32,417 bases of DNA from a virus, in IMG/VR virus record IMGVR_UViG_3300025132_000160, positions 1 to 32,417 of that record. The stretch is one strand, 5' to 3'. Both the position numbers and the translations under genes were made by a program. Each line of letters starts with the position of its first letter. The stretch's first letter is position 1. This document shows positions 3,076 to 32,417 of the stretch, piece after piece. The notes under the pieces are model-generated. The model was not told where the DNA came from. It saw nothing but the letters and a program-made list of their open reading frames with translations, and made no database searches.

Positions 3076-3352
3076 TATCTAAATCCCTATATTTTGGTCT
3101 ACCCTGTAGACGTTTAATTGTTTTTGCATTGCCATCTTCATCTGTTAAATCAACAGATTTTACTTCTAGTATTGAATCTTTTAATCCATAATAACGTTGA
3201 TTTGCTACAGTAGTAAACTGAGTAGCTTCTTCTAATAACAATGTTCTAGAACTAAACTCATCTTGTGCATCATTTAACATAATAATAATTTCATTAGTAC
3301 TAAGTTCTGGATGATGTTTTTTAATTTGGTCTATCATCTGCTGCAACTTCAC
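3068..3352 (-). CDS. Connector-like small protein
   Basis: This 94-residue protein begins MKLQQMIDQIKKHHPELSTN, followed by a helix containing MLNDAQDEFSSRT. After that comes a beta-rich segment (FTTVANQRYYGLKDSILEVK) that reads like the strand pattern of phage head-tail adaptor proteins: an N-terminal helix with 'LNDAQ', then 'F.t.a.q..Y.l...i..v..v' (family impression, not a database match). It overlaps the end of the large coiled-coil gene by 32 bases and the next gene by 8, so expression is tightly coupled. Head-tail or tail-tube joining is a plausible role at moderate to low confidence. Confidence 0.5.
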   Translation of the reverse strand: MKLQQMIDQIKKHHPELSTNEIIIMLNDAQDEFSSRTLLLEEATQFTTVANQRYYGLKDSILEVKSVDLTDEDGNAKTIKRLQGRPKYRDLDNV

Positions 3353-5991: not shown

Positions 5992-7437
5992 TTAGCTAAA
6001 TTTCAAAATAGCGTGTGTTTCTGGAAGTTGAATTTCAAGACCTGCTTCTGTAAGAATCATGTCCTTTCTTCCGTCTACATCGTTGTTCTGAATGTTAGTA
6101 ACAATTTGAGTATCTCTTGACTCACCATTACCAGCTAGTGGTCTGTAAGCTACGTTGTTTAAATCAACAACAATAGCATGGTTTGCCCAAGGACCTCTTA
6201 AAAGTGGTTCCATAACAAAGTTAAGAGTACCGTATAGGGTATCTACTTGTGTTACGTTAACACCATTAAATAGTGATTGTCCTTTATCTAAAGAAACACC
6301 ATATGGTGCAGATGTTGGTACGCCTGTAGCAGATGTTCCAACTCCTGATGCCATAGTATTTCCTAAGAAAGAACTACCACCCATTTTGTTAAGCCAGTTC
6401 ATGATAGAACGTGAAGCAAGTACCATTTTACTACCACCTGCACCAGATTCTGCATCAAAAATATCTGACATAGCATCTACGAAGTCATCATACCCTGATG
6501 AAGCGTAAGTAAAGGTTTTAACCTTTCCGTATACTTCAGTGTAAGGTAAGATACCCCATGTTTTTCTTTGTTGTGATGTTGAAGTTTCATTTACTTCACC
6601 ATAACCGAATAATAAAGCATTTTCAATGTCCATCTTATGTTCCATAAGTTTCTCTTGATATACTCTCATATATTCATTAGCGTCACCTCTGTAGCGTGTA
6701 GCTAAAGAAGTTCCTGAGAATAGAGGTACTGCAGTTTTAAAAATCTGACAGTATCCTTCTCTTGAGTAAAACTCATCTCTCCATCCATCAGGTGCTGTAT
6801 CACCTTCTGCCCATGCTGAACCAATTACTTGGCCTTTTGAATTATCAGCATGTACAATCTTGTCTCCACTAACTAGTGCGGTAACATCTAATGCTCCGTT
6901 TTCAACACCTAGTTCAATAGCTTTAACAAATTCAGCTGATAAACCTGTGTCTGCTGAATTTTGAGTTAAGTCTGTTATTCTATAGTACACTATAAGGTTT
7001 TTATCAGAACCTGCTCCAGCGTTTGCATCTAATTGCCCTTCGATTGCAATCATCTGTCCTACTGTAATAAATTCTGCCTTATAAGGTCCTCCCGCTTTTC
7101 TTCCATAGATATCATAATCAACATCAATAAGGTCATCTGCTTTAACTAAGTTAAAAGTAGCTTGTGTAGAACTTCCATTTGAAGTGTGCGTAATTGCTCC
7201 ATCAGTAGTGAAGTTTCTACGTTGCCATTGATGTCTTTTTTCTAAGAATTTAAATACAGGGTCATCTGTAGGTTTCTTAGCAATTTTAGATAAATATGCG
7301 AAGAAAGGCGAAGCAGCTGGATTTAATTCCGCTACTCTTTCACCGAAATTGAATACTCTTCTAGCATCATTGATAGAAACACCTTGTGGTGCTACACCAA
7401 TGCTACCTGAAAATATTCCGTTTGCGTCTTGTGCCAT
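5992..7437 (-). CDS. Major capsid protein
   Basis: This 481-residue protein begins MAQDANGIFSGSIGVAPQG and lies directly after a scaffold-like gene and a portal gene, the usual order in tailed phages. The N-terminal region (RVFNFGERVAELNPAASPFF) and the long alpha/beta body with a late PLAGNGESRDTQIV segment resemble HK97-fold capsid proteins of the larger type in which no prohead protease is encoded nearby. The family assignment is from context and general character, not from a specific signature. An AAGGAG-type ribosome site precedes the start. A strong stem-loop follows the stop and may raise its mRNA level. Confidence 0.8.
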   Translation of the reverse strand: MAQDANGIFSGSIGVAPQGVSINDARRVFNFGERVAELNPAASPFFAYLSKIAKKPTDDPVFKFLEKRHQWQRRNFTTDGAITHTSNGSSTQATFNLVKADDLIDVDYDIYGRKAGGPYKAEFITVGQMIAIEGQLDANAGAGSDKNLIVYYRITDLTQNSADTGLSAEFVKAIELGVENGALDVTALVSGDKIVHADNSKGQVIGSAWAEGDTAPDGWRDEFYSREGYCQIFKTAVPLFSGTSLATRYRGDANEYMRVYQEKLMEHKMDIENALLFGYGEVNETSTSQQRKTWGILPYTEVYGKVKTFTYASSGYDDFVDAMSDIFDAESGAGGSKMVLASRSIMNWLNKMGGSSFLGNTMASGVGTSATGVPTSAPYGVSLDKGQSLFNGVNVTQVDTLYGTLNFVMEPLLRGPWANHAIVVDLNNVAYRPLAGNGESRDTQIVTNIQNNDVDGRKDMILTEAGLEIQLPETHAILKFS

Positions 7438-8334: not shown

Positions 8335-10656
8335 TTAACTCTCTTCTTCAGTCATAGGTTCGAAAACATCAACGTCTTCTACATCTTCTTGACTAATTTC
8401 AGAGTTCATTAACTGTTGTTTTGCATCGTTCAACCTTGCTTTATAAAGCGTAGTTGCCATATCAGCTCTGTTAGATACTTTATCTAACTCTCCACTGAAT
8501 TTTTCTACTTCTAGTCGTTTCTTAGCGTGTACTGCTTCTCTGTCAGCAGTTTGTAAATCGCCCTTGACTTTCTTTAATTCTTCTGCCATAGCTTGTAATT
8601 GTTGTTGCATTTGTTTCATTTGTCCACTTCTTTCTAATACGCCATCTATATCTACAAGTTCTGACTTTTTTAATACTTCTGTTTGGTCTATTAATCCCAT
8701 CTTATACATTTCCATATAAGTGTTTAATAATGCCATTCTATTTGTAGGCAATGTAGAACCAGATACAACTTGTATATCGTATTTACCTACTCCTATATCA
8801 TGAAATCTTTTTACATCTCCATTATCCATCTCTTTAAAGAAATTAAATCGTTCTTCTTTTTCTGTTCCATTAGGTTGTATTAGTCTAATTACTTTTTCTT
8901 CTGTATATAATTGCTGAATTAATGGTATAGCTACTTTTCCCACTTGATTTAACATTCCTTCTATGTCATCTCTTCTAGATTTAATTCTACGCTGGCCAAA
9001 TTCATCTACAACTAACGTTCCCCTGTATGTTGACGGTGCACTTTTACCACTACCTTGCATTAATTCAAAAATACCAAATCCATACTCTAAGTCATATTTG
9101 GCATCAGCTTCATTCTTATAAAGCTCATTTGGCAATGGGACTGGGCCAGCCACAATCGGTGCACCTAACTCAGCATCAAACTCAATTACACTTGTACCAG
9201 CTTTACTCCACTCTTGTTCTATCTGGTTTAAATCAGCAGAACCTCTAGGTATTAACAACTTAACATTAGTACTAGTGCTTGCGTGTGCTATAATCAATGA
9301 ACGAATTTTATTAATATATTCCTGCAAAGGTCTATATAACCTAACATCAGATTCAGGATATGGATTTCTGTGATGTACGTTCATCAAAGGAATAATTGGA
9401 TAATCTTCTGTTGGCAATAAACGTTCATATAGTTTTTTATCCCCTACACTTACAACTAAATTTACTCTGCATTCTTCTATTTTGTTAGAAACTATATCTT
9501 CCATACCAATTAATTCTTCAACAGTCATAGGTATCAACAATGTTGTAGAACCAGGTATAGAGTTTTCATCTTCTTCTCCAGGGACTCTAATAGGTTCTTG
9601 TTGTATCGGTTGACCCATTTCATCAAATTCAGGGTCAGGAAGTTCATAATGGAACATCATTCCAATATCTTCTATAATTTCAAACATTTCTTTTACAGAT
9701 TCTTCTTCAAATAAAATAATTTCTTCGCCTTTAATTGTTTTTACTTTCATATAATACTTCATAAGATATGCTTGATATTCTTTTTCATCTAACAAATGTT
9801 CTTGTTGTGAAAAAGGTTCAAAACAATTATAGTAACAATGCATTTCTTTTGAATAGCGTTCTATGTATTGTCTTCTATTATGTACAGTTTCTGTACCATC
9901 TGTAGTAAATAACTGTCCTTCTGTAGCTGCTAAATCAGTTACAGGATAATCGTCAGATTCATCTGGATGCATAGCAGATTGCTCAATAATATCATAAAAC
10001 TCAGGATATACTTGCATTGCTTGTTCGTCTGTCATATAAGTTGTTACTAATATGTTAGCTGCATCTCTTGCGTAAATGTCTTTAGCATTTGGGTCTATAT
10101 ATACATCTAATGGATTTATGGATTTGATATATACTTCACCTTTACCCATATCAGCGTCAGGGTCTTGATAGACCTGAAGAACTCCCATACCACCAACATA
10201 ATAGTCGTCAATAGCTTTTTTAAGTTCTTCGTCACCTGCTGATATTTGCCATATATACTGAAATAAATCTGAAAATACTTTAGCAGTATCTCTATCTGAA
10301 TCTTCTCTTCCAGTACTACGGAATTGTGGTGAGTTATAAGTTAAAAGAGATTTAGCAGTTTCTACAATAGGATGTATTCTGTTTACAACAATAGGAGCTT
10401 GTCCACGAGCTTCTAAAACATCACGTTCTTCGTTACTCCACTGAGCTCCAGCTCTAAACTCTACAGATTCTTGAAATTTTTGTGCCCATAATTCTCTAGC
10501 ACTTTTATAATCGTGAAATAATTCTCTTGTTAACTGGACTTCATCGTCAATCTCTACTTGATTAACATCACCAGTTTGGTAATTAAAAACAAATTCTAAG
10601 TCATCTCTGCTTTGTGTTCTTGTGCTTTGTACTCTTTTTTGTATTTTTTTTGGCAT
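8335..10656 (-). CDS. Portal protein, P22-like
   Basis: This 773-residue protein has the length and strand pattern of P22-type portals. Recognisable parts are the crown/clip entry (ELWAQKFQESVEFRAGAQWS), the RHPIVE-like RIHPIVETAKSLLTYN, DYYVGGMGVLQVYQDPD and INPLDVYIDPNAKD, and a C-terminal coiled coil (residues about 680-745, RSGQMKQMQQQLQAMAEELK). The portal forms the dodecameric DNA gate at one capsid vertex and binds the terminase. It lies between terL and the scaffold gene. There is a 149-base gap upstream that contains a promoter-like sequence and a possible 50-codon ORF overlapping the portal start. Confidence 0.85.
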   Translation of the reverse strand: MPKKIQKRVQSTRTQSRDDLEFVFNYQTGDVNQVEIDDEVQLTRELFHDYKSARELWAQKFQESVEFRAGAQWSNEERDVLEARGQAPIVVNRIHPIVETAKSLLTYNSPQFRSTGREDSDRDTAKVFSDLFQYIWQISAGDEELKKAIDDYYVGGMGVLQVYQDPDADMGKGEVYIKSINPLDVYIDPNAKDIYARDAANILVTTYMTDEQAMQVYPEFYDIIEQSAMHPDESDDYPVTDLAATEGQLFTTDGTETVHNRRQYIERYSKEMHCYYNCFEPFSQQEHLLDEKEYQAYLMKYYMKVKTIKGEEIILFEEESVKEMFEIIEDIGMMFHYELPDPEFDEMGQPIQQEPIRVPGEEDENSIPGSTTLLIPMTVEELIGMEDIVSNKIEECRVNLVVSVGDKKLYERLLPTEDYPIIPLMNVHHRNPYPESDVRLYRPLQEYINKIRSLIIAHASTSTNVKLLIPRGSADLNQIEQEWSKAGTSVIEFDAELGAPIVAGPVPLPNELYKNEADAKYDLEYGFGIFELMQGSGKSAPSTYRGTLVVDEFGQRRIKSRRDDIEGMLNQVGKVAIPLIQQLYTEEKVIRLIQPNGTEKEERFNFFKEMDNGDVKRFHDIGVGKYDIQVVSGSTLPTNRMALLNTYMEMYKMGLIDQTEVLKKSELVDIDGVLERSGQMKQMQQQLQAMAEELKKVKGDLQTADREAVHAKKRLEVEKFSGELDKVSNRADMATTLYKARLNDAKQQLMNSEISQEDVEDVDVFEPMTEEES

Positions 10657-10805: not shown

Positions 10806-12290
10806 TTATAATATCTTCCAGGACTTAGCTTTCCTACTATACCATGTAGGAGTTTCTTCTTTTTCTCCTGCATCATGTACGGGTCGATAACAATTTTTGT
10901 TTGCATAGAAAAAACCATCTAACAAGTCGTCATGTTTACCTCGTGGGTACAATGTACACTCATCTATAAATGCTTGCATATCTTTTTGTATATGTACTTT
11001 ACCATTTGCAAACAATGGCTGCAAACTTTCTAATCTATATGATTTACTAGTTCTTGGGTTTTCCTTTATTTCAAGACCAGGTATAAACATACCTAGTTCT
11101 TCAGCTTGTTCTTTAATGTACTGACGTAACATCTCCTGATATCCAACAGATTCAATCCTTGTTTTAGCACTACGTAAATTTTTGAAATTGTTGATAATAG
11201 AATCAGCCAAATCCAAAGGAGTAGCACGCTTCCTAAAGTAAGGTAAAACGAACCTGTTATTATCACTATCCACTGCAATATTAAAAATAACACTATAGTC
11301 TGCTCCTTTCTTAGTGCTAGATGCAGGGTCGACACCAGTAAACACGTTTACAGGTCTCCTCTCTTCTACTTCCTCACCATTTAGGTTCGTCAGGATGAGA
11401 GTTGACAACCCTTGCTCATCTCGTTCAACGAATCCTTCGTAATACTTCAGGTCGTCTTTTCTAAACAAGTTGTCTTCATCACCAACAATCTGGCATAGGT
11501 ATTCTCTGTAAAATACCGATAATCGATTTATACTCTCTAGCTCTTCTTTTTTTTCTTTTAATTTTTCAACGGGCCATACTTCTGGCCATAAACTATAATC
11601 TTCTTCTAGTATAGGTCTATACTCTTTTGTATTCCAACCCTTCATTTCTTTTAAAGTTTCAACCAAACAACGTTCGTGTTGAGGAGTACCAATCACCACA
11701 ATCCTACCTGTCAACGGGTCAACCGATGGAACACCAGATTGCAATAACCAACGCAAGTTATACTCCATTGCCTCAGCAGTCTTAGTATTATTCTCATCTT
11801 CAGGGTCATCAAGTATTAAAAGAGTAGGTCGTTGATTTCCGTGTTTGATACCACGTATCTGTTGACCTGTACCCTTGCATACAATTAAGCTGCCATCTTT
11901 TAACTCTACCTCAGTATTAGTCCACTTTCTTGCAGATTGCATTCCCCAGTATCCAAAAAAATATCGAAACTCTTTAGAATAGTCTAATACATCTTTAATA
12001 GTACCTAAAAGCTTGGTAGCATGGGATTGTGTTCGGGAAACCAATACGATTACCTTCACACCAGGAGTGAACATCAAATGAAACAAAGGAAATATCCCAG
12101 CTGCTACCGAACTTTTTGCATGACCTCTAGGAGCAATGATGTTTATTTGTTTTTCATCATCGTTGAGCAGTTCCTTAGTTAGGTCATAATGAAAGGGTGG
12201 TGATTCACTACTAAACATATTGGGCATCACCATACGCCCAAATAACAGCATATCTTGCTGCATTTCTAACAATATTTTCTTTTTATCCAT
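10806..12290 (-). CDS. terL: Terminase large subunit (packaging ATPase-nuclease)
   Basis: This 494-residue motor protein packages DNA into the prohead. The ATPase motifs are visible: Walker A APRGHAKS (residues 53-60), Walker B LLILDDPED (D161-D162, E164) and the coupling segment IGTPQH (200-205). The C-terminal RNase H-like nuclease shows its acidic triad in FTGVDPASS (D321), an Asp/Glu near RIESVG (E380) and KHDDLLDGF (D454/D455/D458). The length is typical of short TerL proteins. The start at 12290 overlaps the stop of a 36-codon ORF (TAATG), which probably couples its translation. It follows the terS-like gene and precedes the portal. Confidence 0.93.
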   Translation of the reverse strand: MDKKKILLEMQQDMLLFGRMVMPNMFSSESPPFHYDLTKELLNDDEKQINIIAPRGHAKSSVAAGIFPLFHLMFTPGVKVIVLVSRTQSHATKLLGTIKDVLDYSKEFRYFFGYWGMQSARKWTNTEVELKDGSLIVCKGTGQQIRGIKHGNQRPTLLILDDPEDENNTKTAEAMEYNLRWLLQSGVPSVDPLTGRIVVIGTPQHERCLVETLKEMKGWNTKEYRPILEEDYSLWPEVWPVEKLKEKKEELESINRLSVFYREYLCQIVGDEDNLFRKDDLKYYEGFVERDEQGLSTLILTNLNGEEVEERRPVNVFTGVDPASSTKKGADYSVIFNIAVDSDNNRFVLPYFRKRATPLDLADSIINNFKNLRSAKTRIESVGYQEMLRQYIKEQAEELGMFIPGLEIKENPRTSKSYRLESLQPLFANGKVHIQKDMQAFIDECTLYPRGKHDDLLDGFFYANKNCYRPVHDAGEKEETPTWYSRKAKSWKIL

Positions 12291-12400
12291 TAATCCTCTA
12301 TTATAATGGAAACTTTAAAATCTTCTGCAACTTCTAGCAATACTGCTAATAATTCACTTAGATTTGTCTGCTTCCCCGATATCACTATTGTTTTCTTCAT
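12290..12400 (-). CDS. 36-residue bridging protein between terS and terL
   Basis: ATG at 12400 opens MKKTIVISGKQTNLSELLAV, followed by LLEVAEDFKVSIIIED. The stop (12292-12290) shares a base with the terL start in a TAATG junction. The ORF overlaps the last 47 bases of the terS-like gene in another frame and exactly fills the gap to terL. An AGG seven bases upstream could serve as ribosome site. The strand-helix-strand pattern looks protein-like. Its job may be to carry ribosomes to terL, or it may be a real micro-protein. No family recognised. Confidence 0.5.
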   Translation of the reverse strand: MKKTIVISGKQTNLSELLAVLLEVAEDFKVSIIIED

Positions 12401-13151
12401 CTAATTGCCTAGTTTGTGTAGCTTTTAATTTTTTAGTCTGTGTTTCATAACTATTTGCAATTTGATGCGACATATCCATTTCTAAAGATTCTGTAACCTG
12501 CTTTGTCTTAGGTTTCATATCTAAAAACTCCGACAGCTCTTTAGCTGCACGTATCATATTACCAGAGTCTTCTTTTACTTTAGCTACTTCAATAGCATCT
12601 TTTATTACATCTAGTACAAATCCTTCATCAATATCCTTATCAATCAAAATATCTTTCAATTTATCCTGTATCATCTTCTTTACCTGTTTCGTTTTAAATA
12701 ATCTTTTTGCTGCAATAACGGGATTATCTTGGTCGGGCCTGTATAATCTACCTATTTTCTCCCAATCTGGCGATAATCCTGCCATTTTGTACGCTATATA
12801 CGCATCCATAGCTATATCTGCACCCTTTTTCTGTACTTCTAGGTCATTATAGCTCTTTGTAGACACAGTACTAAAGTTATTAGTCCTCCAATGCGGTTCA
12901 AACTCTAGTTTACCCCAGGCAGTTAGCCATTGTCTGCCGTACGGGTAGGTATATTCCACTTTTTCTCCATATACCTTGCGATATATACACTCAGCAACAT
13001 ACCCATCGTCTGATATCCCATACTCACCTTCCTTTGCTTCCCCCCAATGTTTCCATTTTAAGCCCTTACCCTTAGCTTCTTCTTTGGTATACACACGAAA
13101 CGTTTGAGGTTGGAAGTTATTTCTCTTTAGCTTCTTCGTTATTGTTATCAT
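12354..13151 (-). CDS. Terminase small subunit-like protein
   Basis: This 265-residue protein lies directly upstream of terL. Residues about 15-90 form a compact beta domain (KGLKWKHWGEAKEGEYGISD, DGYVAECIYRK). Residues 105-190 hold a helical region, IAMDAYIAYKMAGLSPDWEK, that looks like the DNA-binding helix-turn-helix of small terminases. The C-terminal FLDMKPKTKQVTESLEMD resembles the usual TerS end that contacts TerL. Together with position this supports DNA recognition for packaging. The extra N-terminal domain makes it larger than most TerS. The start overlaps the previous gene by 35 bases, with only a weak ribosome site, so coupling is likely. Confidence 0.65.
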   Translation of the reverse strand: MITITKKLKRNNFQPQTFRVYTKEEAKGKGLKWKHWGEAKEGEYGISDDGYVAECIYRKVYGEKVEYTYPYGRQWLTAWGKLEFEPHWRTNNFSTVSTKSYNDLEVQKKGADIAMDAYIAYKMAGLSPDWEKIGRLYRPDQDNPVIAAKRLFKTKQVKKMIQDKLKDILIDKDIDEGFVLDVIKDAIEVAKVKEDSGNMIRAAKELSEFLDMKPKTKQVTESLEMDMSHQIANSYETQTKKLKATQTRQLDEENNSDIGEADKSK

Positions 13152-13326: not shown

Positions 13327-13401
13327 ATTACTCCTAATGTAGGGTATAAATAAGATAATTAATCGCTAATATATTCGTAGTTTATACATAAACGTATTTA
13401 A

Positions 13402-13423
13402 ATTAGCTAATTAATAAGCTAAT
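13402..13423 (-). terminator. AT-rich stem-loop between the two first leftward genes
   Basis: ATTAGCT (13402-13408) pairs with AGCTAAT (13417-13423) around an 8-base loop, just beyond the stop of the 61-residue gene in the leftward direction. Only a weak AT tract follows. It could be a partial terminator or simple composition. The rest of 13327-13426 shows only the ribosome site of the next gene. Confidence 0.3.
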
Positions 13424-20649: not shown

Positions 20650-20909
20650 TGACTGCAGAAGGTATAATATTAAGATGGATTGACAGTAGAGCTAATTCTT
20701 CTGACCCTTGGTTTGCTTCCTATGATTTAGAAGCAGAAGTACCAGTTTATGGAAGGTTAGCTCATCAAAAAGTACATACCCCAAGTACTTATTCTAGGGC
20801 ATTTAGAAAGATTCGTGAAAGTAATACTTTGATGCGTCTAGGTCTAGTGTTAGAAGAAACTGTTATCCCAACAACAAAGGTTAAAGGATGGAAAATAAAG
20901 AGACTATAA
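20649..20909 (+). CDS. Small replication-cassette protein, winged-helix-like
   Basis: This 86-residue protein starts MTAEGIILRWIDSRANSSDP at a TAATG junction with the SSB-like gene. The helices plus ATKVKGWKIKRL-type end (TYSRAFRKIRESNTLMRLGL) resemble the recognition helix and wing of a winged-helix fold. It is basic overall. It lies between SSB and primase-helicase, so a DNA-binding loader or origin-recognition helper is possible, but this is inference. It overlaps the next gene by 22 bases. Confidence 0.55.
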   Translation: MTAEGIILRWIDSRANSSDPWFASYDLEAEVPVYGRLAHQKVHTPSTYSRAFRKIRESNTLMRLGLVLEETVIPTTKVKGWKIKRL

Positions 20910-22678
20910 TTGAAATTATCAATGGTAGTGTCTCTAATAGAAATCGCATAGGTACCATCGATGAATTTAATAAGTTAGTTAAAAATAATGCGTGGAATGG
21001 TGAGATGTATCGCAGCTATTATAGCTTTGATGAAACACTAAGTCAACACATGGAAGTTAACAGAACAGTTAAAGGATTCGATGGTTTAACCTATTTAGAT
21101 TCTATTATATTAGATGTAGACAAAGGCAATATTGCCGATGATGCATTCCAACCTTATCTGTTGCAATGTCTAGAAGAAATTACAGATTTAGGCATTGACA
21201 AATCTCACGTGAATATATGGTTTAGTGGTAATGGATATCATGTAGAACTATTAAATGTATTTGGCTTTCAACCTAGTAGGTTATTACACGAAAAAGTAAA
21301 ACTTACTATGAAAGAACATTTATCGTTTGCAGATAGTATATTTGATAAAACACGTATCATTAGAGCACCATGGAGTTTAAACAAAAAGACAGGACTATAT
21401 AAAGTGTTTATTCCATATAGTCTTATCTGGAATCTGAAGTACGATAATGTTAAACAAATGGCTAAAGATTATAAATCATATAAACACTGGAAAGAAGATG
21501 GTTGGTACGACACGTTAAATGTTGATAAAGAAGTAGAACCATACTTACAGAACTTAATTGTTTCTACGTCACAAGCAGTTAGCACTGGTGGATACAAAAG
21601 CAAAGATACTACTTCAGTAGTTACTTGTATGCAACACGCTTTTAATGAAGGACCAATAGAAGGACAACGTAATATGAAAATGATGCGTATGTCTAGTACC
21701 TACAAAAGAGCAGGTGTTCCATATGTAGTTGCCTTGAATGGTATGCTGCAATGGTCTAATGGTGCTATGGATGACGAAGAAGTAATTAGAACTGTAAGTA
21801 ATGTATTTGATGGTAACTATCAATATGGCTGCAATGATGTAATTATGTCTGAATATTGCGACCCAAAGTGTATTCATTTCAAAAGAAAAGATTATACATT
21901 GGATATCAAAAATGTAAACGATATGACTAAATCATTAGTAGAATATTTGCAAAATGATATTACCAAGAAGTCAATTAATATGGCTGATATATTTAATTGC
22001 CAAGACTATATTATAAAACCAGGTGAATTAGTTGTATTTTCTGGTGATACTGGTATGGGTAAATCTGCATTTGTACAAAATGTAGTAGTAGGAGCACTTA
22101 AAGATACATTGTTCTTATCATTAGAGATGAATGAATTTCTAACATTTAGAAGATTTGTTCAGATAGCTAATAAGAAAACAGAAGGATGGGTTATAGACCA
22201 AGTAAAATCTAACCCAGATATATCGTTTGAAGAACAGTTAGGTCATATACAAGTAATGACAATAGCACCAGAAATAGAAGCTATTAAGAAGGTAATTGCT
22301 ACGCATGAACCTAACATCTTAGTAGTAGATACGACTGATGAGGTGCACGTTGATAGAGTAGAGTCTGAAATACAAAGACAAAACATTATCATTGGTGCAT
22401 TAAAAGAAATGGCACAGAAACATAATATAATTATTATAGCTGTGCATCACGTTAACAAGATATCTGCAGCAGGTAACACTATAGCATTGCATTCATTGAA
22501 AGGTAGTACTAATGTTGTACAGAAAGCAGATAAAGTAATTATGGTTAAAGGTAATCGAGACGAAAAAGCTAGAGTAATATCTAGTGAAAAATCAAGAGAT
22601 GATGGCAAGTTTGAAATGACAGCACTCTTTGATTATGAAACGATGACTTTTAGACAAGTTGATTGGAGTCAACAATGA
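20888..22678 (+). CDS. Primase-helicase (AEP-like primase fused to DnaB-like helicase)
   Basis: This 596-residue fusion has two parts. The N-terminal half has primase motifs of archaeo-eukaryotic type: IILDVDKG (D76, D78), WFSGNGYHVEL (113-120) and RAPWSLNKKTG (159-169). A Cys cluster, C315/C324/C328 (YCDPKC), may bind zinc. The C-terminal half is a RecA/DnaB-type helicase: Walker A SGDTGMGKS (385-393), SLEM with E413, Walker B ILVVDTTDE (D481) and AVHHVNK (H520-H521). It would prime and unwind DNA at the fork. It starts inside the preceding gene (AAGG upstream) and ends in an ATGA overlap. No DNA polymerase gene is in this window, so it may lie elsewhere or be the host's. Confidence 0.88.
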   Translation: MENKETIIEIINGSVSNRNRIGTIDEFNKLVKNNAWNGEMYRSYYSFDETLSQHMEVNRTVKGFDGLTYLDSIILDVDKGNIADDAFQPYLLQCLEEITDLGIDKSHVNIWFSGNGYHVELLNVFGFQPSRLLHEKVKLTMKEHLSFADSIFDKTRIIRAPWSLNKKTGLYKVFIPYSLIWNLKYDNVKQMAKDYKSYKHWKEDGWYDTLNVDKEVEPYLQNLIVSTSQAVSTGGYKSKDTTSVVTCMQHAFNEGPIEGQRNMKMMRMSSTYKRAGVPYVVALNGMLQWSNGAMDDEEVIRTVSNVFDGNYQYGCNDVIMSEYCDPKCIHFKRKDYTLDIKNVNDMTKSLVEYLQNDITKKSINMADIFNCQDYIIKPGELVVFSGDTGMGKSAFVQNVVVGALKDTLFLSLEMNEFLTFRRFVQIANKKTEGWVIDQVKSNPDISFEEQLGHIQVMTIAPEIEAIKKVIATHEPNILVVDTTDEVHVDRVESEIQRQNIIIGALKEMAQKHNIIIIAVHHVNKISAAGNTIALHSLKGSTNVVQKADKVIMVKGNRDEKARVISSEKSRDDGKFEMTALFDYETMTFRQVDWSQQ

Positions 22679-23660: not shown

Positions 23661-23918
23661 ATGAAACCATTAAGAGATGAAGTTGTAATTAAGCAGCAAT
23701 CTAGAGAAAATAAAACAGAAGCAGGTATTATTTTAACAACAGATGTAGCAATAAAAGAAAATGTTGGTGAAGTAGTAGCTCTTGGTAGTAAAGCAGAAGA
23801 ACTAGAAATAGGAGACAAAGTATTATTTGGTCCAGGATTTGTAGTTCAAGAAATCAATAAAGAAGAATATTTGATTATGAACACTCAAAATATATTATTG
23901 GTATTAGATAATGAATGA
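23661..23918 (+). CDS. groES: GroES-like co-chaperonin
   Basis: This 85-residue protein starts MKPLRDEVVIKQQSRENKTE after AAGGAG and has the Cpn10 outline: MKPLRD start, mobile loop region ENKTEAGIILTTD, VGEVVALGSKAEELEIGDKV, and EEYLIMNTQNILLV end. It is slightly short (GroES is 97). Phage co-chaperonins such as T4 gp31 help the host GroEL fold phage proteins. No GroEL gene is in the window, so it would cap the host chaperonin. A structured RNA precedes it, and its stop overlaps the next ATG. Confidence 0.85.
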   Translation: MKPLRDEVVIKQQSRENKTEAGIILTTDVAIKENVGEVVALGSKAEELEIGDKVLFGPGFVVQEINKEEYLIMNTQNILLVLDNE

Positions 23919-24163: not shown

Positions 24164-27100
24164 TTAATCTAAATCTTCATCTATTTCTTCTTCATTTGCT
24201 TCAATTTGGTCTCTTCTGAGGTCATGAAGGGTATGAACAGGAATTCCGAACATAAATTCACCAAACATAGCAGGACTTTTATAGGTTCTTGCTACATCTC
24301 TACCAAATCTACCAAATGGGAAATAGGTTGCTAATTGATATTTAGTTAGATTTTCAAAGTCTTGATTCAATAAAGCAGTCGTTGGTGCTAAAACAAAACG
24401 AGCAACTGGTGGTGTTACAATACTTAATGGTGATAATACTGGATGTGGGTATTGACTAAAGAATGCACGTTCTCTTTCTTCTTCATCACCAAATAATAAC
24501 ATAGAAGTATCTTGCATCCAATTCATAGGTGGTGATAATGCATAGTCAAATATACTTGCAACAAATATATTAGCAAGTGCTAATGCCATTAAATCTGCCG
24601 TAAGCTGCCTTTGTGCTCTTTTAGTTTGATAACCACCAGACCATTCTTCAAATCTAGCACCTCTATATACTTTAATTCTTCTACCAATACTATTCCAAGC
24701 ATAAGGATGAAAACGCGTCATAACCCTACCTAAAGATGTGTTAGCTACATTAGGTCTTTGTGTTGCATGGTAAATAAACTGTGATGCTTTTACAGTTCTA
24801 TTAGCTAATTGTATTAATATAGGGTGGTCAAATGGTAAATTCTTACCAAATTCACCTAACATTTTTCTAGCATTTATGTATGCTGCATCCCAAGTTCTAC
24901 TACGTAATAAGAACTCAGACTTTCTCATGAACACAGCACCAGCATTTGTAATAGCTTTACCTGCACCTACTTCTTTGAATACTTCTCTAGTGGTCATATC
25001 AGCAAAGTTATCAAATTCTTTTTCATTTTTACCACGCAATCCATCTTTACTAATTGTTCTAGATACAGTTTTTACTGCTTTTACTAATGGTTCTGACATA
25101 CCTACCATTTGGAATCTTGAATCTTTTTGTGCTTCGTTAATTAACATATCTTCAAAAGTACCAATGTATGCTTGCCATTCTTCCCATTCTTTTCTGTTTC
25201 TAATTTTTTTAGTAATAACTTCACCAGTAGCAGAATTTAAAATTTTATATGTTGTATTTTCACCCCATACATTATCGTTCCACCAAGTGTCAGATAGTGC
25301 ATCTGTAAATGGTTTTAATCCTACATCAGTAATAGTATTACTACCACCACCATAAATGTTAGTTAGGAATGTTTTAGGGTGGAATAACAATGACATCATT
25401 TCAAATTTACCTTCAAGGTCATTTAAATTTTGTCCTAGTCTTGCTATATACATATCTCTTGCTGCTCTATTTTTAGGTGCTGCATCTAATATTTTACCAC
25501 CAAATATACTATCTAAACGTTCAGTAAAGTTTATAACAGATTCGTCAGTCATTAATCCATAACCATTACCAAATCTACCTATTTTGTTTATATTTTTTTC
25601 TTGTAATAGTTTAGCTAAATTTTCCATCTTTTTTTCTCTTGCTAAATCTAATGAACGTTGTATTCTTGTATCAGCATCTATATTATCTCTCTGCATTTTA
25701 AATATTTCAGCTTTGATTTCACCACGTTGTATAGTGTTTAATCCTATATGATAATCTACACGTTCTAAAAAGTCTTTTTGTTTACGCATACCTTTTACAA
25801 AACTTTTGTCAAAATTATTTGCAGCATAATCTTTTAATAAATCAAATTCTTTTTGCGTAATACCATGTATATCAAAGTTACGTATAGAAGGATATCCCAT
25901 TTGATTCTTAGCAACATCCATCATAAAATATGCCCAAGACTCTGTAATGTCTTTATCTTTTCTTAATGGATTTTTTTCTACAAAACGTTTTATATTATTA
26001 CCTACTTTTAACGAAAGATTGCTATTGATTAAATTTCTATACATAGAACTTACATATCTATTTACATGATTAATACCAAGGTCCCATTCAGGTAAACTAA
26101 CTTCTTCACTTCTACCTTTTAAGTGTCCATTGTATCTACCCATGCCCATAGATTTTTGTAAAGTAAAATCCTCTATAATAGCAAGCTCTGCTATGTCGTT
26201 TAACTTATCTACACCTTTGGTGTTATATCCTTCATACTTTTCTCTTAATGATACCTCATATCTTAATAATGCTCTTTTTAATGAAACTTCTCCTTGATTG
26301 CTTGCTGCATACTCTAAATCTATTTTTGTTAAAATACTAGGGTCTTTAGCTGCTTTGTCTAGTTCTGTTTGTATAATTTTTTCTATAGCTGCTTCGTTTT
26401 GTTCTCTTCTAAACTTAGTACCAAATGGGTCTGTATGTGGAACATAATGTTTTACACTACCATCTGAAGATACATATCTACCCAAACTAACAGTTTTAGT
26501 TAATGGTTTATTACGCATATAGTTTTGCATTTCTTTTTTAACTACAGCAAATTCCTCTTTAGATAATTCTTTAGTAAAATCTAGTTTTACCATTTTACCT
26601 TTAACTTTTACTGGCTGTTCAAAAAGACGTTCTAAATGTTCATTCAATCTTTGGTAATATCTAAAAAAGTTTACATCAGTAATTGAAGGTAATTTTCTTA
26701 AAGCACTTAAAGGGTCGCTAGCAATTAATTCACTCATACCAGCATACAATGAATCTACTTTAGTTCTGTTAGATAATAATCCATTAGCATCTAAAAACAA
26801 CTGTTGTAGCTGTTGTATGTCATAAGCTATTTGTTTATCTATATAATTTTTTTCATTTGTTTTTGGTTGTACCAATAAATCATCTTCTAATATTTTATAT
26901 TCATTAATCTTTTTACCTACTTTAATAAGCTTGTCTTTTAATACAGAACTTCTACTCATAATAACATCTTTCATAACCTGGGTCATAATATTTGTATATG
27001 AATCATTAATCATTTCAACTACTTGTTCTGGTGTTTTGTTAACACGTTCACCTTTTTTACCAGTTTCTGTTTCAAACTTAAACTTTACACCTTCTTTAGT

Positions 27101-30100
27101 CATTTTATCAAATTCTGCTTTAAGTGTATTGTATTTGTTTTCTATATTTATTTCTTGCTCTCTGTTTGTAATACCTCTATAAAACATTAAAGTACCATTT
27201 TTACTTGGATTTGCTTCTCTTAATATCATAGCAAACTTAAACAAAGTAGTAAAGTTATTACCTTGAGCTCTATCTTCTGGTCTAATTAAACGTAAATTTT
27301 GTTCTATTTGTTCTTCAATATCTTTTTGTTTAGCATTGTTCATCTGATGAAACGCAAGTGTCATTTCAGTATTTAATTCAATAGTACTGTATGGCATTGT
27401 ACCGCTTTTAAATTTTATATTACCATCTTTGTCTTTAACTACATTCATAACACGACCCATTGTTTGGTCTTTTTCTGCATTCTCAATAAATTTTAATTGG
27501 TCTTTTAATGTAGTAGTAGCAAAATGTTCAAACCATTTAGGTGCTCCTTCTATACTATATGTACCAGTTTCTTTATCAAATTTAATAGACCTTTGTAATA
27601 ATGTTCTTACAATACCAGGTTGTAACATAGAATCATAATAATTCATAAAGTTATTAATATCTTTTGCAGTGGCATCAGTAAATTCTTTACCTACTTGGAA
27701 TCCTTGAAATGGTCTACCAGTAGTAAAAGATTCAAATTGAGCATCAATCGTAGAACCAAATCCTTTATGTATCTTTAAAAAGTTTTCTAACCTACGTAAT
27801 ACCGCTTTACCATAGTCAGTAAGGTTAGGGTCTTTATACGCTTGTTCAAAATCAATCTTAGCTATACCTTCTTTATCTACTTTAATTTTTTGATATTGTT
27901 CTTCTATAACTTCTATTTCTTTTTCTTGTTTTTCTTTAGCTATTTCTTCACGTACACCTTTTTCTAAATCTTTAGCTTTAACTGTCCTAGTTTTACTTAC
28001 TGGTATATCTGCATTATCAGTAGTTTCTGGTGCTTTAATTTCGTTTGTTTTGTTATATACAGCATCTATAGTATTAAAAAATATTTTACTATTAGCAGGG
28101 TCAATAGCAGGATTCTTAAACATTAATTCGTTTTGTAACCCTTCTATAGCATTTTTAATTTTTCTTACCTCTGATAATTTTGCATTAGTATCAGCATCAT
28201 ACTTCATAGTACCTTCATCAGGAAATCTTTTTTCTAACTCTTTGTATATTTCTTGTATTCTATCATAACCTTCATTTAATCTATACTCTACATTTTTTTC
28301 AAGTTTATTGTTATAAATAGCATCACCAAGTTTAGGATTACCTTTTGTTTTAATTATAGGATGTGCGTGTAATGCAAAATCCATAAATGCATACATTTCT
28401 CTACGTATAATGTTTAATGACCTTTTATCTGTAATACGTTTACTTAAAGTAGTGTTCATTACTTTTTTCATATCAAGAATTGACTCTGCAATAGCTCTAG
28501 TGTTTTCACCTTGCTTCATTTCAAAAGTTCTTTTTAATATAGTTTGCAAATCTTGTATGATATTTTCTTTAGCCATACCTTGTTTACTTAATAATTCTAT
28601 AATGTAATCTCCTTTACGTGTCAACAAATCAACACCAATAAGATTGTTTATAGTTCCTCTTAAGTTTTTACCACCTTTTAAATCATTAGCTAATATCTTA
28701 ACGTTCAAATCTTTATAAAAATCTAACAATTCAAGTTCTTTAAATGTACCACTTTTCTTAAGGTTTTTGTAAGTACGTTGTAAGTATGCAACGATATTTT
28801 CTGGACTAGTAAATTTAAAGTTTAAAAAGTCTCCACCCATATCTAACTTAGATAATATCTTTGCTTGCTGCATAAAGTAATTTGTTTCTGCACCTTGTTT
28901 CATAAATGGTTGCCACTGGTCTATAAAATCTTTAGCAGCTTTAATTAATGATGGATTTTTAATTTTTCTATATCCTCCTTCAAAAACATATCTATGTTCA
29001 GGATTCACCCATACATCTTTTTTACTTTGTATAGCTTTAGAAAATACTTTAAATGCGTGTAAGCTTGTTTTTTTGTTATTGGTTAATGTATACCATTTAC
29101 TAAATTTTTGCTTGCTAACATCCTTACCATTGCGTTGCACTGTAAAAAATGTTTCAAATATTTTCTGTACATTGTTTCTTGCACTACCAATTTTTACAAA
29201 CTCTGCACTATCTACTGCAATATTAATACCAGTATAACTTACATCTTTTAAAAATCCAAAGTCGTTTAGTTTAATTTTTAAGGTATATCCATTACCAATA
29301 TTTAATTTACCGCCATTAGTAGTTATAATATCAAATAACATTTGAAAATCTGTAGTAGCATTTACAATAGTACCTACTGCTTTTTTACCTTCATATGCAG
29401 CTTTAGCAGCTTTTATTCTTTCTTTGGTGCTAAATAACATAGATAATTTTTGACCTTCACTAAGTTGTTTATCTTGAAATACTACATCGAACAAAGTTTC
29501 TGCGATACTACGACCTTGTTTGTCGTATTTATTTTTCATTCTTTTTAAATCTCTAGGTGTAGCATTAATATTACCATCTTGTAATTCGTATTGTATCTTA
29601 GGATTACTAAATGCTTTTTTAACTATAGAAGGTAATGATTGATATCCTGTTACTGTATCACCATCTTTATCCATACCTCCTAAATACAAATCATTTAACT
29701 CTGATGCAAAGAAATTATATCCACCACGTTCTACAAACCCTTTAAATACCAATGCCCTTACACCACCATTACCACTATTAGGTGTACGCATCACTAAAAA
29801 TGTTAAAGCATCTTCTAGTAAATCTAACTTTAACTTATCTGCTTTAGTCTTTTTAAGTTCTTTGTATTGTTCGTATGCTTTTTCAAGGGTCATTACCTCT
29901 TGACCAACTTTTACAGGATTCTTTCTATGCTGTTCTCCAAGCATAAATTCTGTTTCTTTAAGTCCATTCATACGTTCTAAGCGTGGTGTATACAGCCCAG
30001 CATAGGCCTTAAATCCACTTTCCACACCTATTTGATTACTTCTACCTACAATGTATCTTGCAAGAATATTAGATATAAAATTCTGATTCTCTTTCATTAC

Positions 30101-32417
30101 ATTAAATGCGTAATCAGTTTTCTTTAATACCTCTGGTGTAAATCCTAACTCTGCTATTTCTGCCATATCTAATGTAGCCACGTCAGATAACTCTACAGTG
30201 TCTTTATTTACTTGTTTATTTAGTTGGTTAACTATTTCCTTTGCTCTTTTGGTAGTGGGATTTGCTTGTAATGTATCAATTAAATCTTGTACTCTAATAG
30301 TGTCTATGTCAAACTTAACGTAATCGTCTCCACCTTTTAAAAATTCTTGTGTTAATTTTTTGTCACCTTCCATATTTTTAATACGTAATTCTTGTATTGC
30401 ATCAAAATATGTTTGGTCAAAATCTTGTAATGTGTTTTTATCTAAAAATTGTTTATATAGTTTTAATTTCTTTTGTCTATTAATTTCTACACGTTGTTTA
30501 TATACATAGTCAGTAACAGATTCATTAATACCAAGTTCTTCAGGTCTTATCTTAGCAAAATCAAGTGCATCTTTAAATGACCAAGTGTCATTTTTACCTT
30601 CTATTAATTCATTAATTTTTAATTTACCAAGTTGTTTTAAACCAGTTCCATATACTAAAATATGTGTATTAGACTCCATCATTAATTGATTCAATCCAGC
30701 AGACTCTGGTTTAAATCCACCTGACTTAGTACGTATTTCTCCTCTACCCATTCTAGGGTTTGCTACGATAACAGGTTTTAAAAACCCATAATCTTTAGCC
30801 CAACCAAATTTATTACCAATACTATTCCATAAATCTTCTCTAATAATAAAACCACCGTCAGTTCCAGATTCTAGTTCTATACCATATTTTTTTAATTGTT
30901 TATCAGTAATACCTATTAAATTTAAATATCCATATATACCACCATCCATAACCTTAGCTACGTCTTTAGCTTCCATAGATACTACATCACTTTGTGGCAA
31001 TGTGTCGTACTTATTATCTTTTAATACATCACCATTAATTTTGCCTTCAGCTATATCTTGTTTCAATTCTTTTAATGCTTTCTTTAAATCTGTTTTATTA
31101 ACAGTAGGGCGTTCTATGTATCCATTATCTAATAATTTATATACCATATTAGATGCCATTTCTAATTGCTCTGTTGCACCTTTTAAATAATCTTTACTAA
31201 CACCAGATTCAAGCATAGCATTTACATAAGTATTTAAATTTTCTTTTACATTGTTTGGTACTCTTTGTAATATAATTGTTCCTTTATCTTTAGCACCACC
31301 ATAAATGTAATAATCACTGTATTCTACTAATAGGTTTTCATATAATCCATCCAGTTCTTTTTTACTATATATATCTAATGGTTCTTTATATACACCAGGA
31401 TTATTTGGGTCTTCTGCTTTTCTAATAATAACACGTGTATCTAGTCCGTATCGTTCGTTAATAGAGTTTTCAGCAGTACGTTCTACTAAATTTTTACCAT
31501 CTTTATCTACTTCTAGTTTAGGTCTGCCTTTAGAATCTTTACCAGTACCTATTTCAACAATTTCTCCTGACGCATTTATAGCAAACTGAGAACGTTCTGC
31601 ATAAGTTTTAATGCGTAGGAACATAGACTTTAACGGAGTTTCACCTACTTCGTTTTTAAATTTTACATTTTTAAACTTGCTAGTAACATAAGATTCAAAC
31701 CCAGCATAATCATTTAAGTTTTCATATACACCTTCAATTAATAATTGTTTCGTATCATACTTACCTAAATTGTAATTGCTAGGGTCTTTAACAATCTGTT
31801 GATATACTTTATCTAATGCAGTATTAATAGAAATAGGGTCATTAATATCTCTATCTTTTGACTTCATATAAGCGTTAAACTCTGGGTCAAAACCATCTAA
31901 CAATCTATTTTTTATATCATTTAATATAACATTTTCTACTGCATCTGTACGTTCTTGTGTTTTTCTAGCAAAATCTTTATCTGTTTCAAATTTTTTAATA
32001 TATAAATCAACTGGTGTTCTACCTCTATCCATTAATGCTTTTACAACATCTGATTTTGTTGCTTCCTGTGATAGTTCTTTTAATTCTTCAGGTGTAGCTT
32101 TTTCAATATCTATTTTCTTTTCTTCAGCTATCTTAACAATTTCTCTGTCTATAATAAGTTTAGCACCTATTTTTTGTGCACGTTGTTGCTGCTGTAAATA
32201 CAATGTATTAGAATGTCTTTCAAACATTTCTTGTACTTCAGGATTTTCTTTATATATTTCAGTCTTTTTAATTTGTTTTTCATATCTACTAATGTTGCTA
32301 TTACCATTAGCCATAGGATTTTCCATAATCATTTTTCTAAATTTCATTTCTTGTGGTGATTTAGAATTTGCACCAAAGAAGAATCCCATCATATATTCAT
32401 AAACTTGTTCAGGTAAT
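24164..32417 (-). CDS. Giant virion protein with DPBB RNA polymerase signatures, 5' end beyond window
   Basis: The frame is open to the right edge: eight in-frame codons (LPEQVYEY) precede the first ATG pair at 32392, which has no good ribosome site. The gene therefore probably starts outside; at least 2742 residues follow that ATG (numbering from it). Residues 538-590 hold KPVIVANPRMG, RTKSGGF and THILVYGTGLKQLGK (K586), a likely first barrel with the catalytic lysine. Residues 869-886 (RTPNSG...FKGF) then GGMDKDGDTVTGY (D908, D910, D912) look like the second barrel with its DxDGD metal site, compare NADFDGD of bacterial beta-prime. The C-terminus (about 2300-2742) is helical with a hydrophobic stretch near 2600-2620, like ejected virion proteins. 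This arrangement resembles crAss-like virion RNA polymerases. T7/N4-type motifs were not seen. The role (injected early transcription) is inferred. Confidence 0.65.
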   Translation of the reverse strand, partial: LPEQVYEYMMGFFFGANSKSPQEMKFRKMIMENPMANGNSNISRYEKQIKKTEIYKENPEVQEMFERHSNTLYLQQQQRAQKIGAKLIIDREIVKIAEEKKIDIEKATPEELKELSQEATKSDVVKALMDRGRTPVDLYIKKFETDKDFARKTQERTDAVENVILNDIKNRLLDGFDPEFNAYMKSKDRDINDPISINTALDKVYQQIVKDPSNYNLGKYDTKQLLIEGVYENLNDYAGFESYVTSKFKNVKFKNEVGETPLKSMFLRIKTYAERSQFAINASGEIVEIGTGKDSKGRPKLEVDKDGKNLVERTAENSINERYGLDTRVIIRKAEDPNNPGVYKEPLDIYSKKELDGLYENLLVEYSDYYIYGGAKDKGTIILQRVPNNVKENLNTYVNAMLESGVSKDYLKGATEQLEMASNMVYKLLDNGYIERPTVNKTDLKKALKELKQDIAEGKINGDVLKDNKYDTLPQSDVVSMEAKDVAKVMDGGIYGYLNLIGITDKQLKKYGIELESGTDGGFIIREDLWNSIGNKFGWAKDYGFLKPVIVANPRMGRGEIRTKSGGFKPESAGLNQLMMESNTHILVYGTGLKQLGKLKINELIEGKNDTWSFKDALDFAKIRPEELGINESVTDYVYKQRVEINRQKKLKLYKQFLDKNTLQDFDQTYFDAIQELRIKNMEGDKKLTQEFLKGGDDYVKFDIDTIRVQDLIDTLQANPTTKRAKEIVNQLNKQVNKDTVELSDVATLDMAEIAELGFTPEVLKKTDYAFNVMKENQNFISNILARYIVGRSNQIGVESGFKAYAGLYTPRLERMNGLKETEFMLGEQHRKNPVKVGQEVMTLEKAYEQYKELKKTKADKLKLDLLEDALTFLVMRTPNSGNGGVRALVFKGFVERGGYNFFASELNDLYLGGMDKDGDTVTGYQSLPSIVKKAFSNPKIQYELQDGNINATPRDLKRMKNKYDKQGRSIAETLFDVVFQDKQLSEGQKLSMLFSTKERIKAAKAAYEGKKAVGTIVNATTDFQMLFDIITTNGGKLNIGNGYTLKIKLNDFGFLKDVSYTGINIAVDSAEFVKIGSARNNVQKIFETFFTVQRNGKDVSKQKFSKWYTLTNNKKTSLHAFKVFSKAIQSKKDVWVNPEHRYVFEGGYRKIKNPSLIKAAKDFIDQWQPFMKQGAETNYFMQQAKILSKLDMGGDFLNFKFTSPENIVAYLQRTYKNLKKSGTFKELELLDFYKDLNVKILANDLKGGKNLRGTINNLIGVDLLTRKGDYIIELLSKQGMAKENIIQDLQTILKRTFEMKQGENTRAIAESILDMKKVMNTTLSKRITDKRSLNIIRREMYAFMDFALHAHPIIKTKGNPKLGDAIYNNKLEKNVEYRLNEGYDRIQEIYKELEKRFPDEGTMKYDADTNAKLSEVRKIKNAIEGLQNELMFKNPAIDPANSKIFFNTIDAVYNKTNEIKAPETTDNADIPVSKTRTVKAKDLEKGVREEIAKEKQEKEIEVIEEQYQKIKVDKEGIAKIDFEQAYKDPNLTDYGKAVLRRLENFLKIHKGFGSTIDAQFESFTTGRPFQGFQVGKEFTDATAKDINNFMNYYDSMLQPGIVRTLLQRSIKFDKETGTYSIEGAPKWFEHFATTTLKDQLKFIENAEKDQTMGRVMNVVKDKDGNIKFKSGTMPYSTIELNTEMTLAFHQMNNAKQKDIEEQIEQNLRLIRPEDRAQGNNFTTLFKFAMILREANPSKNGTLMFYRGITNREQEINIENKYNTLKAEFDKMTKEGVKFKFETETGKKGERVNKTPEQVVEMINDSYTNIMTQVMKDVIMSRSSVLKDKLIKVGKKINEYKILEDDLLVQPKTNEKNYIDKQIAYDIQQLQQLFLDANGLLSNRTKVDSLYAGMSELIASDPLSALRKLPSITDVNFFRYYQRLNEHLERLFEQPVKVKGKMVKLDFTKELSKEEFAVVKKEMQNYMRNKPLTKTVSLGRYVSSDGSVKHYVPHTDPFGTKFRREQNEAAIEKIIQTELDKAAKDPSILTKIDLEYAASNQGEVSLKRALLRYEVSLREKYEGYNTKGVDKLNDIAELAIIEDFTLQKSMGMGRYNGHLKGRSEEVSLPEWDLGINHVNRYVSSMYRNLINSNLSLKVGNNIKRFVEKNPLRKDKDITESWAYFMMDVAKNQMGYPSIRNFDIHGITQKEFDLLKDYAANNFDKSFVKGMRKQKDFLERVDYHIGLNTIQRGEIKAEIFKMQRDNIDADTRIQRSLDLAREKKMENLAKLLQEKNINKIGRFGNGYGLMTDESVINFTERLDSIFGGKILDAAPKNRAARDMYIARLGQNLNDLEGKFEMMSLLFHPKTFLTNIYGGGSNTITDVGLKPFTDALSDTWWNDNVWGENTTYKILNSATGEVITKKIRNRKEWEEWQAYIGTFEDMLINEAQKDSRFQMVGMSEPLVKAVKTVSRTISKDGLRGKNEKEFDNFADMTTREVFKEVGAGKAITNAGAVFMRKSEFLLRSRTWDAAYINARKMLGEFGKNLPFDHPILIQLANRTVKASQFIYHATQRPNVANTSLGRVMTRFHPYAWNSIGRRIKVYRGARFEEWSGGYQTKRAQRQLTADLMALALANIFVASIFDYALSPPMNWMQDTSMLLFGDEEERERAFFSQYPHPVLSPLSIVTPPVARFVLAPTTALLNQDFENLTKYQLATYFPFGRFGRDVARTYKSPAMFGEFMFGIPVHTLHDLRRDQIEANEEEIDEDLD

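Follow-up and report, generated by a model that had tools for sequence, protein, structure and literature searches.

RNA polymerases of the two-barrel type are known to be packaged by crAss-like phages, some jumbo phages and the Thermus phage P23-45. The N4-like virion RNA polymerase, a giant protein of about 3,500 aa, is the virion polymerase of a podovirus. The RNA polymerase (RNAP) proteins of phiCrAss001 travel in the virion as cargo; they are probably kept in the capsid and ejected by way of the tail (PMC10172136). Where virion RNAPs are fused to large proteins, this arrangement has been suggested to link transcription with the entry of DNA (PMC10770324). Single-chain two-barrel RNAPs present a beta-like barrel, a helical connector, a beta-prime-like barrel and a long helix, in that order (PMC10770324; PMC7824862). 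Here we analyzed a 32,417-base fragment of an uncultured virus, hereafter the window, containing a giant gene. Profile comparison and structure prediction support that the middle of the encoded protein is a divergent relative of the crAss-like two-barrel virion RNAP.

The giant gene and its relatives

24164..32416 (-): giant open reading frame (ORF), 2750 aa, open to the window edge, with its 5' end missing

The version of this ORF that starts with ATG occupies 24164-32392 (-) and encodes 2742 aa. Residue numbers are counted here from the open frame, and the ATG numbering of the preliminary description equals the open-frame number minus 8. Comparison with full-length relatives revealed that about 380 N-terminal residues are lost at the window edge. 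In four of these relatives (L001, L002, L005 and L015) the protein has 3104-3130 aa and starts with a TTG approximately 380 residues further upstream. The counterpart in L003 has 3,241 aa and that in L006, the end of which is cut off, at least 3,253 aa, both with extra inserts, and full-length relatives overall span about 3,100-3,250 aa. Since the relatives begin about 380 residues earlier, the protein is larger than the preliminary description, which relied on the frame cut by the window edge, had stated. The giant ORF is real, its conservation being far beyond chance, and the gene is under purifying selection (dN/dS about 0.1-0.17).

The whole giant protein gave no usable match in Pfam, PHROGs, PDB (phmmer) or INPHARED (tblastn), and no named phage matching it was found in the INPHARED search. 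A first scan of genome contigs also produced no match. Close relatives were found by a direct scan, a query with the Asp-triad block described below added one more, and the neighbouring primase-helicase, used as a query, led to relatives with giant proteins that have no more than about 20-50% in common with that of the window. The core profile matched 130 environmental viral-contig stretches encoding relatives, 80 of which were retrieved for analysis; those that are uncut hold open frames of about 2,600-3,400 aa, each containing the core. Cellulophaga phage phi38:1, which had been guessed to carry a relative, gave no match in a test without a positive control for the core profile. No description of this giant-protein family was found in the open-access library searched, and an earlier description is possible.

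The polymerase-like core

The core accounts for about 640 of the approximately 3,100 aa, most of the chain being non-polymerase. Its elements are listed below, with barrel and helix boundaries taken from the secondary structure of the model and not from coordinate measurement.

29132..31057 (-): predicted RNA polymerase core, residues 454-1095, from AlphaFold, Foldseek and the profile match to crAss virion RNAPs
30527..30925 (-): first double-psi barrel (beta-like, DPBB-B), about residues 498-630, from invariant D520, K547, K564 and K594 and the model strands
30635..30637 (-): K594 (K586 in ATG numbering), 100% conserved
29813..30526 (-): mostly helical connector between the barrels, model helices 184-341 and 391-417
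29636..29809 (-): second double-psi barrel (beta-prime-like, DPBB-A), about residues 870-927, R877xP879 ... GGxDKDxD, from conservation, alignment and model
29657..29671 (-): predicted metal-binding triad D916-x-D918-x-D920 (D908/D910/D912 in ATG numbering), from conservation in 45 representatives, with a chance expectation of 0
29318..29428 (-): 37-residue helix after DPBB-A, with G1010-K1011, model helix 544-580

In 45 representative cores, chosen at <85% identity to one another, K469, D520, K547, K564, K594, G684, R877, P879, R887, G899, G913, G914, D916, D918 and D920 are 100% conserved. Overall core identity in the same set drops to about 20% while the catalytic residues stay invariant, and a MAFFT alignment of 43 sequences agrees with the set of invariant residues. 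At the DNA level the window contains a single match to the GG-x-DKD-x-D pattern (29657-29680, -), and 100 shuffles yielded none. Both motif blocks are located at the residues named in the preliminary description, K586 and D908/D910/D912.

The comparison set, consisting of phi14:2 and eleven other crAss-like or related polymerases, carries the block [YF]RxP ... G-x-D[FLY]DxD, and the spacing from R to the first D is 39 residues in both the window protein and phi14:2. Alignment of the core profile with crAss-like virion RNAPs by hhalign gave Prob 95.1% and E 3e-8 over 430 columns, with both barrels collinear. It paired R877, P879 and the Asp triad with their crAss-like counterparts, and D520, K547, K564 and K594 with the D/K/K/K of the phi14:2 family; the two basic residues of the beta-like barrel, K564 and K594, are both invariant and aligned to lysines of that family. 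With phi14:2 left out Prob was still 93.9%, and the controls remained at <=0.1% (reversed and column-shuffled) and <=0.4% (other phi14:2 virion proteins). Significance was reached by pooled families only; small crAss subsets (1-3 sequences) and phi14:2 alone were not significant in the profile comparison, though the best stretch of the small subsets fell on the Asp-triad block. The single sequences of P23-45 gp64 and gp96 were not significant against the core profile, an hmmsearch of PDB sequences with this profile returned noise only, and plain HMM searches of PDB, Pfam and PHROGs failed to detect the polymerase in the core. No Pfam match to PF00940 (the T7/N4-type RRM palm) was found in the giant ORF. 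A T7-type polymerase was not matched in 16 relatives either, a weak result given that the records may be incomplete and the control was silent.

The preliminary description had proposed a polymerase with two double-psi barrels and a structural comparison with phi14:2 gp66. The AlphaFold2 model of residues 454-1095, built from 43 sequences, was confident (pLDDT 88.1, pTM 0.86), and in a Foldseek search of 350,542 PDB chains its best match was the phi14:2 virion RNAP 6VR4 (E 5.9e-8, TMq 0.52), followed by QDE-1 (E 7.3e-6) and the AR9 non-virion RNAP (E 2.5e-4). All PDB matches with E < 0.001 were two-barrel polymerases; subunits of cellular RNAPs and a Thermus phage RNAP of the gp64 type scored more weakly. 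In a viral structure library the core model matched crAss-like phage proteins and unnamed viral proteins. The double-psi barrel with D-x-D-x-D, invariant in the 45 representatives, lies inside this modelled core, and the order of elements in the model agrees with that described for single-chain two-barrel RNAPs. The proposal is thus supported by the profile comparison, the predicted fold and the invariant catalytic residues. The 37-residue helix is a candidate bridge helix, assigned by order and length, and the helical connector may occupy a clamp-like position by analogy with the polymerases described earlier (PMC10770324).

The core also varies in length among relatives. L003 and L006 carry different domains inserted at one site, between the catalytic barrel and the bridge-type helix (after window residue ~980), and the cores of L017, L020, L022 and L028 are longer too. 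Matches to cpYpsA/SLOG (Pfam 1.3e-19) or DprA-like families were found for individual core members, and a crAss-like cr126_1 protein with the polymerase motif carries a DUF1768 annotation.

Genome context, lineage and host lead

12354..13151 (-): putative small terminase, from its position beside the large terminase (TerL) only, with no PHROG match
10806..12290 (-): large terminase, phrog_38 E 2.6e-82
8335..10656 (-): P22-type portal, phrog_156 E 4.6e-64, with a tblastn match named 'phage P22 like portal protein'
5992..7437 (-): major head protein, phrog_1328 E 4e-26
20888..22678 (+): primase-helicase of the rightward replication block, from PHROG matches

G001 (47.4 kb) and G005 (46.3 kb), both near-complete relatives, have one replication block facing a long structural block, in which terminase, portal, head and fibres are followed by a cluster ending in the giant gene; following this order across the contig ends presupposes a circular or permuted map. 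The window presents the same gene order, broken at its edge. One gene of the cluster near the giant gene matches endolysin and internal-virion-lysozyme families. A GroES-like co-chaperonin gene (23661-23918, +; phrog_3188 E 4.2e-17) adjoins the giant gene, and its product could conceivably serve as a folding helper for the giant protein. Elsewhere, a 769 aa protein (3321-5630, -) contains internally repeated coiled-coil-like stretches, its G001 counterpart having 437 aa. Furthermore, a non-coding stretch of 83 bp (13331-13413), flanked by the diverging terminase and replication blocks, is identical in G001 although other genes differ, and part of this stretch recurs in L017 and L019. It is a candidate promoter or origin. 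No notable fold was found in it, a search for early promoters gave sigma-70-like sites not above shuffles, and Rfam returned no match.

The TerL, portal and major head protein were searched at E up to 10 against five Crassvirales genomes (phi14:2, cr55_1, cr10_1, C0521BD4 and cr112_1) and gave no match. Run against three records of the new group, these queries recovered TerL at 63-93% and portal at 47-86% identity, and the head protein at 60-73% in two of them and more weakly in the third. By these tests the phage appears to fall outside Crassvirales, and the missing matches point to a separate lineage with a related polymerase. The term 'crAss-type' used in the preliminary description thus suits the enzyme, as judged by profile and structure, but not the virus. 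The relatives found so far appear to form a deep clade of two-barrel polymerases, each in a single chain, carried by small podovirus-like, mostly marine environmental phages.

Regarding the host, a Prochlorococcus single-cell genome includes a group member on a 46 kb contig (L140, QCPL01000010.1, 46,061 bp, a length shared by viral record L123), which encodes two proteins resembling, by eye, 2-oxoglutarate oxygenases. Another lies on a contig of 5 kb that was assigned to the bin of a Flavobacteriaceae MAG (L139). Prochlorococcus as host of one member is a lead only, since viruses that were attached or co-sorted can end up in single-cell genomes, and the binning of MAGs is prone to error.

Packaging, ejection and known systems

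24167..25579 (-): C-terminal module, probably helical, residues 2280-2750, kept in nearly all relatives reaching the stop codon

The AlphaFold confidence of the C-terminal module was 57.7, too low to name a fold. Its main weak family match was phrog_11358, of unknown function, and it gave no profile match with the crAss core. Hydrophobic stretches are found near both ends of the giant protein, the C-terminal one at residues 2605-2623. In several more distant relatives the first 100-150 residues of the giant protein have homologues in separate proteins whose genes lie immediately upstream (best E 2.5e-9). The ORFs sharing this N-terminal module have about 220-260 aa (L118, L121, L100, L105 and others), and the module is possibly a packaging or ejection signal of co-ejected proteins.

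We consider it quite probable that a single-chain two-barrel DNA-dependent RNA polymerase is built into a giant virion protein, which is ejected and transcribes the early genes. In the core (residues 454-1095) the beta-like barrel would provide the conserved lysines K564 and K594, and the beta-prime-like barrel R877xP879 and the metal-binding D916/D918/D920, followed by the long bridge-type helix. The giant protein would be expressed late, along with the structural genes, be packaged in the particle, and be ejected either before the DNA or together with it. Its ends would help entry through the host envelope, the rest of the chain presumably acting as an ejection protein, and the core, catalytic by analogy, would then transcribe the early (rightward) genes. 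Packaging is suggested by the position of the giant gene, last in the late structural block and near the internal-virion-lysozyme-like gene, as well as by the homology of its N-terminus to upstream proteins and the hydrophobic stretches. For packaging, ejection and early transcription alike, we also infer from the analogy with phiCrAss001 cargo and the proposed coupling through fusion.

The polymerase could instead be an unpackaged enzyme made during infection for middle or late genes, like P23-45 gp64 or the AR9 non-virion RNAP, which we regard as unlikely. The fold does not discriminate here, the AR9 non-virion and gp64-type Thermus RNAPs being among the PDB matches. However, the giant gene ends the structural block on the late strand, its polymerase is fused to conserved ends, and its N-terminus resembles small proteins of the same cluster. 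With an unpackaged enzyme, early genes would require the host RNAP, which is possible. That the protein is a structural ejection protein with a polymerase-derived fold that no longer makes RNA seems very improbable, as catalytic residues remain invariant in the 45 representatives while their surroundings diverge, even if the core is a small part of the chain. Finally, DKDGD alone resembles an EF-hand-like calcium loop, an objection anticipated in the preliminary description, but a chance likeness to polymerases can practically be dismissed, given that the residue between the second and third Asp varies (G, A, S or I) and fits such a loop poorly, that two separate blocks are collinear with crAss polymerases, and that the predicted fold matches RNA polymerases ahead of all else in PDB.

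Returning to the packaged polymerase, we see roughly even chances for a broader proposal. A deep undescribed virion-RNAP clade would define widespread small, mostly marine podoviruses, some infecting Prochlorococcus, in which one giant protein per particle would combine an ejection and membrane-entry device with a polymerase starting early transcription without host RNAP. If so, the packaged two-barrel strategy would reach phages mostly of 43-54 kb outside the known groups, in at least 130 viral-contig stretches, and would offer a more compact model in which to follow the packing, ejection and refolding of a giant polymerase. An 'unknown giant protein' of uncultured phages would become a testable candidate enzyme, and the Prochlorococcus single-cell contig a pointer toward a host.

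Among known systems, the N4 virion RNAP is of the T7 type (RRM palm), whereas the predicted fold of the window protein is of the double-psi barrel type. QDE-1 and YonO are single-chain two-barrel polymerases as well, but without fusion to virion modules; of the two, QDE-1 is covered by the structure comparison. In P23-45 gp96 a virion RNAP of the two-barrel type is likewise fused into a giant virion protein, with an R-x-P ... D-x-D-G-D motif and a similar G-x-GG stretch (PMC10770324). However, gp96 serves a long-tailed phage as tape measure protein and carries the polymerase at its N-terminal end, while in the window the polymerase is internal and the portal is of P22 type. Phi14:2 gp66 (PDB 6VR4), the closest PDB structure, and other Crassvirales RNAPs also have both barrels in one chain, in the same order and with collinear motifs, and sit within very large late-block proteins. 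Identity over the aligned region is about 10%, with GGxDKDxD in the window versus GSDFDIDK. Contigs of the new group are mostly 43-54 kb compared with Crassvirales genomes of about 90-105 kb, and one giant protein was found in place of the Crassvirales block of several RNAP proteins.
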